Shown: one piece after another, positions 34,123-36,483 of the stretch
How positions within the stretch are numbered: position 1 is the first letter of the stretch
Layout of the letters: each line of letters opens with the position of its first letter
Assembly (NCBI GenBank): GCA_001512665.1
Contig: LFSF01000028.1
Location: forward strand, 66,779-117,686
Source: Clostridiales bacterium DTU073
GTDB taxonomy: Bacteria; Bacillota; Peptococcia; DRI-13; DTU073
DNA: 50,908 bases
Reading direction: 5' to 3'
Program-made: the position numbers and the translations under genes
The notes under the pieces: generated by a model
Told to the model about the DNA's origin: nothing
Seen by the model: only the letters and a program-made list of their open reading frames with translations
The model's database searches: none

Positions 34123-34143
34123 ACTTAAGGGAGGAAAATGGTA

Positions 34144-34929
34144 ATGCGTAAAGCTGAGCTTGCTGTTATTGGAGGCACGGGCGTTTATCGTGCTGAGATG
34201 TTAGAAAATATTCAAGAGGTTGATGTGGAGACCAGGTATGGTAAAGTAAATTTATTGCTTGGTACTTGTGAAGGTCGGAACGTGGCTTTTTTAACCCGGC
34301 ATGGTAAAGGACATACCGTTCCTCCTCATTTAATTAATTATCGGGCGAATATCATGGCTTTAAAGGAATTGGGGGTTAAAAAGATTATAGCCACTGCAGC
34401 GGTTGGTTCGCTTAATGAAGAAATGGCGCCCCATGATTTTGTGTTGCTGGATCAGTTTCTTGATTTTACGAAAACACGCCAAAGTACTTTTTTTGATGGT
34501 GGTGTGCAAGGTGTGGCACATGTTGATGTAACAGATCCTTATTGCCCGGGGATTAGAAAGTTTGTTTTTGAGAAGGCCAGAGCATTAAGGATTAAGGTTC
34601 ATCAGGGCGGCTGTTATGTCTGTACAGAAGGACCTCGTTATGAAACACCGGCGGAAATTAAAATGTTTAAGCAATTAGGTGGAGATGTTGTGGGCATGAC
34701 CAGTGTTCCCGAGGTTGTCTTAGCTCGTGAGGCAGGAATTTGTTATGCTACGTTATGTATGGTTACTAATTATGCGGCGGGCATTTCTCCACATGCGCTT
34801 ACCCATGAAGAAGTTCTGGTAGTGATGAAAGAGATGAGTGAGGATATCTCACGTTTGATTATGGCGACTTTGGCGGAAATGCCTGTGGAAATGGAATGTG
34901 GATGTTTGCCTGAGTTAAAAAGTATGTAA
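34144..34929 (+). CDS. mtnP: 5'-methylthioadenosine/methylthioinosine phosphorylase
   Basis: A PNP/MTAP-family phosphorylase of about 261 residues that releases 5-methylthioribose 1-phosphate from methylthioadenosine or methylthioinosine. Motifs: IGGTGVY at the N-terminus, LTRHGKGHTVPPHLINYRAN near 50 (phosphate site), VGSLNEEMAPHDFVLLDQFL near 91, and CTEGPRYETPAEI plus GMTSVPEVVLAREAG in the C-terminal half. Two in-frame ATGs exist (34138, 34144); AAGGGAGG spacing favours 34144. The nearby deaminase MtaD means the true substrate could be methylthioinosine. Confidence 0.88.
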   Translation: MRKAELAVIGGTGVYRAEMLENIQEVDVETRYGKVNLLLGTCEGRNVAFLTRHGKGHTVPPHLINYRANIMALKELGVKKIIATAAVGSLNEEMAPHDFVLLDQFLDFTKTRQSTFFDGGVQGVAHVDVTDPYCPGIRKFVFEKARALRIKVHQGGCYVCTEGPRYETPAEIKMFKQLGGDVVGMTSVPEVVLAREAGICYATLCMVTNYAAGISPHALTHEEVLVVMKEMSEDISRLIMATLAEMPVEMECGCLPELKSM

Positions 34930-34943
34930 TGTAAAAAGATGTA

Positions 34944-35174
34944 GTGTCTGTTCGTTTCTGTGCTTCGTTCAGAACAGACTAGAACTCGGCTCAGGAGAAT
35001 ACAGACTTCCCTCGATATACATCCTTGTACTGCGAGGGTTAGGGCTGACGTCCTGTCAGCCCTTCTGTATTCTCACTTCGCTTTCGTTAAGTCTGTTTTG
35101 CTGAACTTCGCAATGAAACGGTTCAGACACAACATCTTTTATAATGAATTTTATAGACACACTTCATATTGCAG
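34944..35174. repeat. Palindromic repeat element, full copy (MITE-like)
   Basis: The core 34944-35130 (187 nt) starts GTGTCTG and ends CAGACAC. The arms pair imperfectly along most of their length (for example GAGAATACAGA at 34995-35005 with TCTGTATTCTC at 35064-35074). The apex contains two clean stems: CCCTCG/CGAGGG (35009-35014/35033-35038) and GGGCTGAC/GTCAGCCC (35042-35049/35055-35062). The right side, 35035-35174, recurs 230 nt downstream. No transposase is present and no target-site duplication was obvious. Confidence 0.7.
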
Positions 35175-35264
35175 TTATCTAAAGTTGGAGTTTCAACACA
35201 ATTGCCTCTTACCTAAAACTTTGAAGTATTTAATTTGGGAGTAACCCCTGACCTTTTATACTCA

Positions 35265-35400
35265 AGGGTTAGGGCTGATGTCCTGTCAACCCTTCTGTAT
35301 TCTCACTTCGCTTTCATAAAGTCTGTTTTGCTGAACTTCGCAATGAAACGGATGAGACACAACATCTTTTATAATGAATATTATAGACGCTTTATATTGC
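35265..35400. repeat. Partial second copy of the palindromic element
   Basis: It repeats 35035-35174 with an offset of 230 nt and about ten to fifteen differences including a 2-nt gap. It lacks the left arm, so it is a right-half copy. It ends about 40 nt before mtnA and separates that gene from any ancestral upstream signals. It keeps a GGGTT/AACCC closing pair that replaces the GGGCTGAC stem of the first copy. Confidence 0.75.
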
Positions 35401-35439
35401 CAATAGCTTTTAATTCGGATGATATTTCAAGATGAAAGG

Positions 35440-36483
35440 ATGATGCTTTTGCAACCGGTGCAATGGGAAGATGGTGTATTAGTTTTATTAGATCAGACGC
35501 TGTTACCTTCACGAATTGAATATTGTCGTTGTCGAAATTATCTCCAGGTAGCTGAAGCAATTAAGACGATGAAGGTACGTGGAGCTCCTGCGATAGGGGT
35601 TAGTGCTGCCTATGGGATAGTTTTGGCAGCTTTTTCATATCAGGGAGAAGATAAAGCGGAATTTATGCGCACTTTGGAAAAAGCCCGGGCTGTCCTGGCA
35701 GAGACCAGACCTACGGCGGTAAATTTATTTTGGGCTTTGGAACGGATGAAAGGTGTCTGGGAAGAAAATTCTGCTTCCGCGATTTCGGAAATAAAAAACA
35801 TTTTGGCGGATGAAGCAAAGGCTATTTTAGATGAAGATTTGCAAGCTAATAAGCGTATGGGGAGCTTCGGTAATGAGTTGATTCCTAAAGGGGCTTCGAT
35901 TCTTACGCATTGTAATGCGGGTGCTCTGGCTACAGCCGGTTTTGGTACAGCTTTAGGTGTTATCCGTACTGCTCATGAAGCGGGGAAGGATATTCGGGTT
36001 TTTGCTGATGAAACGAGACCGCTTTTACAAGGAGCAAGGTTAACGGCTTGGGAACTGTTAGAGGACGGCATTCCGGTTACTTTAATAGCTGATAATATGG
36101 CAGGTAGTATTTTTAGACAAGGGAAGATAGATTTGGTCATTGTTGGTGCTGACCGTATTGCCGCTAACGGTGATGTTGCTAATAAGATAGGCACATATTC
36201 TGTTGCGGTGTTGGCTCATTATCATCATGTTCCTTTTTATGTGGCAGCTCCTTTATCTACATTTGATCTTTCTCTTTCTACCGGGCAAGAGATTCCTATT
36301 GAGGAAAGGGACGCAGAAGAAATGAGGAGATGGGGAGAGTATCAATTAGCCCCCCAAAATGTACCGGTCTACAATCCGGCATTTGATGTTACGCCGGCTG
36401 ATTTAGTAACAGCTTTTATTACTGAAAAAGGGATTATTCGGCCTCCTTTAAAGGCTGGGATAAAAAGTTTGTTTGAACTTTAA
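35440..36483 (+). CDS. mtnA: S-methyl-5-thioribose-1-phosphate isomerase
   Basis: Converts methylthioribose 1-phosphate to methylthioribulose 1-phosphate in methylthioadenosine salvage. It is about 347 residues of the eIF2B-like fold: KVRGAPAIGVSAAYGIVLAA near 43, ILTHCNAGALATAGFGTALG near 155 (catalytic Cys), FADETRPLLQGARLTAWEL near 187 and VGADRIAANGDVANKIGTY near 232 (catalytic Asp). The start is uncertain: ATG 35440 and 35443 follow GAAAGG very closely, and an in-frame ATG lies at 35419. The repeat element just upstream may have changed its initiation region. Confidence 0.92.
   Translation: MMLLQPVQWEDGVLVLLDQTLLPSRIEYCRCRNYLQVAEAIKTMKVRGAPAIGVSAAYGIVLAAFSYQGEDKAEFMRTLEKARAVLAETRPTAVNLFWALERMKGVWEENSASAISEIKNILADEAKAILDEDLQANKRMGSFGNELIPKGASILTHCNAGALATAGFGTALGVIRTAHEAGKDIRVFADETRPLLQGARLTAWELLEDGIPVTLIADNMAGSIFRQGKIDLVIVGADRIAANGDVANKIGTYSVAVLAHYHHVPFYVAAPLSTFDLSLSTGQEIPIEERDAEEMRRWGEYQLAPQNVPVYNPAFDVTPADLVTAFITEKGIIRPPLKAGIKSLFEL

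Follow-up and report, generated by a model that had tools for sequence, protein, structure and literature searches.

In Clostridiales bacterium DTU073, mtnP and mtnA are separated by a long palindrome that very probably belongs to a dispersed palindromic repeat, non-autonomous, corresponding to TwoAYGGAY (RF01731) in Rfam and working like a REP/BIME element. Copies of this repeat are multiple and patchily present among related genomes, which also hold empty sites; they keep a fixed position and orientation, their arms change in a compensatory manner, and they nest and decay. Each of the two options in the original prediction, a non-autonomous mobile repeat and a structured RNA family, holds: 19 copies found by BLAST and 20 by covariance model, uneven spread in relatives and empty sites speak for the first, and strong covariation together with a near-cut-off Rfam match to TwoAYGGAY for the second.

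The element and its decayed partner between mtnP and mtnA

Within the window, by which we mean the whole 50,908-nucleotide stretch that was analyzed, the element is flanked upstream by mtnP (34138-34929, plus strand, stop codon at 34927-34929) and downstream by mtnA (35440-36483, plus strand); the open frame called for mtnA begins at 35419, the alignment of relatives begins at about its residue 10, and 35440 is the more likely start. The palindrome runs, as predicted, for exactly 187 nt from GTGTCTG (34944-34950) through CAGACAC (35124-35130), and its pairing extends outward to AAAAGATGTAGTGTCTG / CAGACACAACATCTTTT, so that the full element with its outer arms, as defined by the inverted repeat, folds, Rfam and our own covariance model, occupies 34934-35140 (207 nt), with the GGA-loop strand on the minus strand. 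Its terminal inverted repeats (34934-34950/35124-35140) have 17-nt arms that are 94% complementary, and the first arm starts 4 nt after the mtnP stop codon. Both apical stems that had been described as perfect are real, although only the second deserves the word: the hairpin at 35041-35063 has a perfect stem of 9-10 bp with the minus-strand loop ACAGGACGT, and its plus strand also scored as terminator-like, whereas the stem of the hairpin at 35009-35038 is near-perfect and carries, at 35019-35030, minus-strand GTACAAGGATGT, which equals the CsrA SELEX consensus RUACARGGAUGU. A TAATG repeat stands on both sides of the copy, possibly by chance. Two open reading frames, 34960-35244 (94 aa) and 35235-35435 (66 aa), overlap the repeat; the sequence they share is due only to the duplication, and they are probably not genes.

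The right part of the element is duplicated 230 nt downstream with changes, as had been noticed, in a direct repeat of 124 nt at 94% identity (35035-35158/35265-35388). This half copy is a decayed second, tandem copy at 35214-35388 on the minus strand, which our model matches at 35214-35334 with 30 bits and of which 35265-35388 is the good match. Near its left end, at 35243-35263 on the plus strand, lies a probable remnant, CCCCTGACCTTTTATACT, of a third short repeat (GGGGACATTCC...GTGTCCCCTGACCTCTTAATACTG), recognized by alignment with nested copies elsewhere in the genome (L158, L160). The operon is interrupted as proposed: 493 nt separate the aligned mtnP and mtnA, compared with 7-101 nt in about 37 relatives in which the two genes are adjacent, and the element model gave no match at a credible score at those roughly 37 loci.

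The sole Rfam match in the region is RF01731, at 34960-35113 on the minus strand (41 bits, E 1.6e-4, against a cut-off of 43), and a sister copy in the same genome (C42:2299) scores 58.8 bits against that family. The TwoAYGGAY motif was reported by Weinberg et al. (2010; PMC2864571), and the family is listed as a probable structured RNA that is not cis-regulatory. Our covariance model, R1, built from twelve copies of the window type, matches the window copy at 34970-35104 on the minus strand with 147.8 bits; its family matches in the own genome and three relatives include canonical Rfam-type copies, and it also retrieves RF01731-type copies from other families of the class, with E down to 1e-20. 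Because R1 finds these copies too, we regard the window type and the Rfam type as subfamilies of one family. Like the published motif, the window copy has a long stem, conserved G-A internal loops and two terminal GGA-loop hairpins on the same strand (minus-strand loops CAAGGATG and CAGGACG), while its subfamily differs in having its own core sequence and its own outer arms, and the strict AYGGAY letters are absent from both of its loops. We distinguish type A, with outer arm AAATATGCTGTACCGTTT, from type B, with GTTTTAGCCAAGGTACTGCC; B copies often lie inside A arms (L168, L170, L171, L179, L180).

Ten occurrences of the third short repeat (GGGGACATTCCGC...GCGGTGTGTCCCC, also found as GGGGACATTCCGC...GCGGTGTGTCCCCTGACC) were counted in the genome, often in the apical loop of TwoAYGGAY copies (L158:2311-2504, L160:2068-2257, L161:1951-2138, L152 at about 791-901, L330:1500-1560). 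For nine of the ten, a TwoAYGGAY copy contains the repeat or lies no more than 160 nt away; the tenth lies inside a decayed copy, and the repeat seems to live only inside another repeat. Composites of a full copy plus a second copy with a nested third repeat are found also on C1, C36 and C42. Since the left end of the window half copy, which reads CCCCTGACCTTTTATACT, aligns with the end of the third repeat, the half copy is most likely the decayed second unit of such a composite, and it probably once held another nested repeat.

Dispersal of copies and conservation of the fold

The search of the genome for further copies, the first check proposed for the palindrome, returned about 20. BLAST gives 19 copies in the own genome (G000) including the query, the others being 73-93% identical to it, and R1 gives 20 matches. 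The true number must exceed 20 because the covariance model overlooked a decayed copy, L330. This copy (L330:1460-1640, G000:C3:41.4k) is of type A, contains a nested third repeat and sits directly behind a putative metK, so named from its C-terminal sequence only. Elsewhere we noted other long, near-perfect hairpins of GTGGCAGGAGAAACGTCCCCATGCCACA and GTGACAAGGGGACGGGGTTGTTGACA types filling intergenic gaps (L227:376-696 at G000:C1:84.4-84.8k; L228 in G004:C85), which are apparently unrelated palindromic repeats.

Presence among relatives is uneven. The genomes compared are for the most part fragmented assemblies, with copies often found at contig ends and with genes called from open frames; the closest relatives that bear names are metagenome genomes of Clostridia and Peptococcaceae. 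Six relatives belong to the same family, of which three carry 8, 9 and 12 copies (G002, G004 and G006, respectively) and three carry none (G001, G003, G005); G001 lacks copies though it shares its genus with the carrier G002. Across the class, 18 of 46 genomes carry TwoAYGGAY, with up to 25 copies each. In G027 and G029, from other genera, the median pairwise identity among copies is 90-91%, at unrelated loci. One site that has a copy in G002 has none in G000 and G001, and in G004 only a remnant with an internal deletion is left there. The host genes, with names inferred from Pfam domains, are unrelated housekeeping genes (among them gpmI, pcrA, ilvN, prmC, pgpA, leuA, a pyruvate-carboxylase-type gene and a D-Ala-D-Ala carboxypeptidase gene). 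At gpmI, the copy L172 is nearest to L150, which indicates a copy inherited in place rather than moved; at two other shared sites tested the copies are not mutual closest relatives, so that orthology is supported for gpmI only.

Folding and covariation, both proposed as checks, agree on a conserved structure. The element folds with -90.6 kcal/mol on the plus strand and -92.2 kcal/mol on the minus strand (z = -9.8 and -10.6), and none of 200 shuffled sequences was equally stable. In an alignment of 47 copies, 90.7% of cells are paired compared with 74.4% after shuffling, double (compensatory) changes occur in 39 of 49 pairs, covariation is 0.476 compared with 0.199 when shuffled, and sliding the structure as a control lowers the paired fraction to 30-40%; these figures lean towards structure, because the alignment was fitted to the covariance model. 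An independent MAFFT alignment of 12 sequences shows double changes in 24 of the 49 pairs. The outcome that would have spoken against the prediction, no other copies and no conservation of the fold, thus did not occur. In G021 we observed copies (L303-L320) whose outer arms of 25-45 bp diverge strongly from copy to copy and are almost perfectly paired, around a better conserved core, a pattern that points to conversion between arms or to very rapid compensatory changes.

The two strands are not equivalent. The ratio of single changes yielding G-U to those yielding A-C is 96:39 when structures are taken from the GGA strand, 47:67 when the opposite strand is used with its own structure, and 58:32 for pairs predicted from both strands. 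Because G-U variants exceed A-C variants on the GGA strand, this is probably the strand whose folding is protected, with the caveat that the events counted are not independent of one another; this strand also carries the conserved G-A internal loops. A purely DNA-level palindrome, hinted at by a weak asymmetry of A-C versus G-U in the core (46:34), was dropped because the preference for the GGA strand became clearer when changes were recounted genome by genome, with the arms included and the opposite strand as control. That the palindrome arose by chance or by misassembly can be dismissed with near certainty: draft contigs do often terminate in copies, but a fold z of about -10 and many copies in several genomes with consistent flanks stand against it, and the copy searches and covariation refute it.

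Position behind stop codons and a possible role in host transcripts

Copies share a position and an orientation. Of 42 scorable family copies, 38 have a convergent gene on the 3' side of the GGA strand, a table whose p-value is optimistic because it counts orthologous and tandem copies; in the own genome alone 17 of 18 do (p = 1.4e-4). The same tendency is seen in G027, G029 and G014, and the orientation bias is absent from G021. All 15 scorable copies of G000 start their outer stem no more than 17 nt from a stop codon, and all six of G002 no more than 13 nt from one, negative distances meaning that the stop codon already lies inside the stem; G004 is looser, with several copies 31-124 nt away. 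Many loci (for example L151, L167, L173) have a conserved pyrimidine-rich stretch (CTTCCTT / CCTCTTCC) on the 5' side of the GGA strand, between the full copy and a second partial copy; the gene strand there reads purine-rich GGAAG/GGAGG.

In the window, the strand that carries TwoAYGGAY runs antisense to mtnP and mtnA; the mRNA of the operon bears the complementary UCC-loop hairpin. The repeat would have settled directly behind the mtnP stop codon in the orientation common to nearly all copies, with its GGA strand antisense to mtnP, and the mtnP-mtnA transcript is predicted to carry a hairpin of about 200 nt that starts 4 nt past that codon. In E. coli, a proportion of REPs lie within 15 nt of a stop codon and stall ribosomes there (PMC12306157). 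By analogy with these REPs, and given the 4-nt distance of the window element, we infer that the hairpin may separate mtnP from mtnA expression by partly terminating transcription, by protecting the 3' end or by stalling ribosomes as they terminate.

The alternative that survives best carries this possibility further and is compatible with the repeat reading: the copies may now be mainly functional 3'-UTR elements under selection at their sites, acting as bidirectional terminators, mRNA 3' stabilizers or ribosome-stalling hairpins, with mobility an ancient matter. The fixed stop-codon position, the fixed orientation and the compensatory evolution of the arms speak for it, as do genes that have copies behind them in more than one genus (gpmI, pcrA, ilvN, leuA and others), one such case being clearly orthologous. 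Yet copies that are decayed or have internal deletions persist (L222, L231, L330), the carrier G002 has a congener with zero copies, the copies are not closest relatives at two of the three shared sites tested, and G-U pairing favors the strand that is absent from host mRNA. We give this alternative real weight while holding it to be less likely than not.

CsrA, REP transposases and the identity of TwoAYGGAY

A different function has been proposed for the family, in which TwoAYGGAY copies are CsrA-binding small RNAs or sponges whose two GGA hairpins titrate a CsrA dimer. The published proposal rests on motif matching (PMC4333381), and our data contain similar matches: the window minus-strand hairpin GUACAAGGAUGU is identical to the E. 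coli CsrA SELEX consensus RUACARGGAUGU (PMC6692469), csrA is found in the own genome, and by the G-U/A-C counts the GGA strand is probably the folded one. CsrB/RsmZ-type RNAs likewise present ANGGA hairpin loops closed by C-G, whereas TwoAYGGAY has only two such loops, occurs in many scattered antisense copies and is present without CsrA. The CsrA family was undetected in seven of the 18 carriers (G002, G004, G006, G008, G015, G027, G029), five of which are copy-rich, with 8-18 copies (G002, G004, G006, G027, G029), and chance loss of csrA from all seven is unlikely because completeness is 80-96%. CsrA and the element show no association over the 46 genomes (p = 0.38). Moreover, two CA(N)GGANG loops are intact in about 46 of 55 copies from genomes without csrA, in 11 of 18 in the csrA-bearing own genome and in 0 of 18 in the csrA-bearing G021, and a promoter scan over the window element returned two candidates versus 1.8 expected, so neither strand exceeds chance. 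Some lineages may have CsrA binding; as what maintains TwoAYGGAY it is unlikely, and we rate the sponge proposal as improbable for the family.

Equally poor is the standing of the proposal that the element is a REP proper, moved by a REP-associated Y1 tyrosine transposase (RAYT). The copies are extragenic, downstream of stop codons and multi-copy, as REPs are, and they share with the REP/BIME sequences of enterobacteria and pseudomonads their palindromic form and their composite arrays between operon genes; in keeping with a REP, no target-site duplication was seen by eye at clean G027/G029 copies. REPs, however, measure 20-40 nt, many of them bear a tag of the GTAG type (PMC3733652), and RAYT transposases are associated with them (PMC2817692). 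TwoAYGGAY elements are about 200 nt long (about 207 nt for the window copy) with a branched apex. No transposase was found inside the element, and our search for a mobilizing enzyme, which covered the Y1 family, found none in the own genome or in the other copy-rich genomes G002, G014, G021 and G027; Y1 transposases occur in nine of 18 carriers and 12 of 28 non-carriers (p = 0.76), with no association across the class. Its length and the lack of transposase association place the window element outside the REPs as strictly defined.

MITE-like non-autonomous repeats, which include the Correia, ERIC and BOX elements, offer a second comparison. TwoAYGGAY resembles MITEs in being short, non-coding and multi-copy, with terminal inverted repeats and a modular build with nested insertions, and differs from them in forming a single paired hairpin from end to end, with arms that vary between copies yet stay paired; nor was a parent transposon found in the search, which covered the Y1 family. 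Integron-type attC sites, imperfect hairpins behind stop codons, were considered and set aside because the copies appear to sit in ordinary housekeeping operons, not cassette arrays. For the dispersed repeat that we favor, copies would have spread by transposition with help supplied in trans, and the form recognized would be the GGA strand, whether RNA or single-stranded DNA. We put forward only tentatively, as an idea with perhaps a minority chance of being right, that TwoAYGGAY is a class of mobile hairpin elements rather than a regulatory RNA, spreading by way of its folded GGA strand in RNA or single-stranded DNA form, with targeting to the bases directly after stop codons in fixed orientation and a non-Y1 mover.

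Multi-copy, stop-codon-bound repeat behavior of TwoAYGGAY was not found described in the open-access papers searched, though the original supplements may mention it. The sole published functional proposal that we found for the family, the CsrA sponge, is weakened by GGA loops that stay intact in genomes without detectable CsrA. Covariation as strong as this is usually taken for the mark of a functional RNA; here it accompanies repeat-like behavior, which bears on how computational RNA screens are read. The long-unassigned Rfam family TwoAYGGAY would gain a different identity, as a dispersed, stop-codon-bound hairpin repeat.
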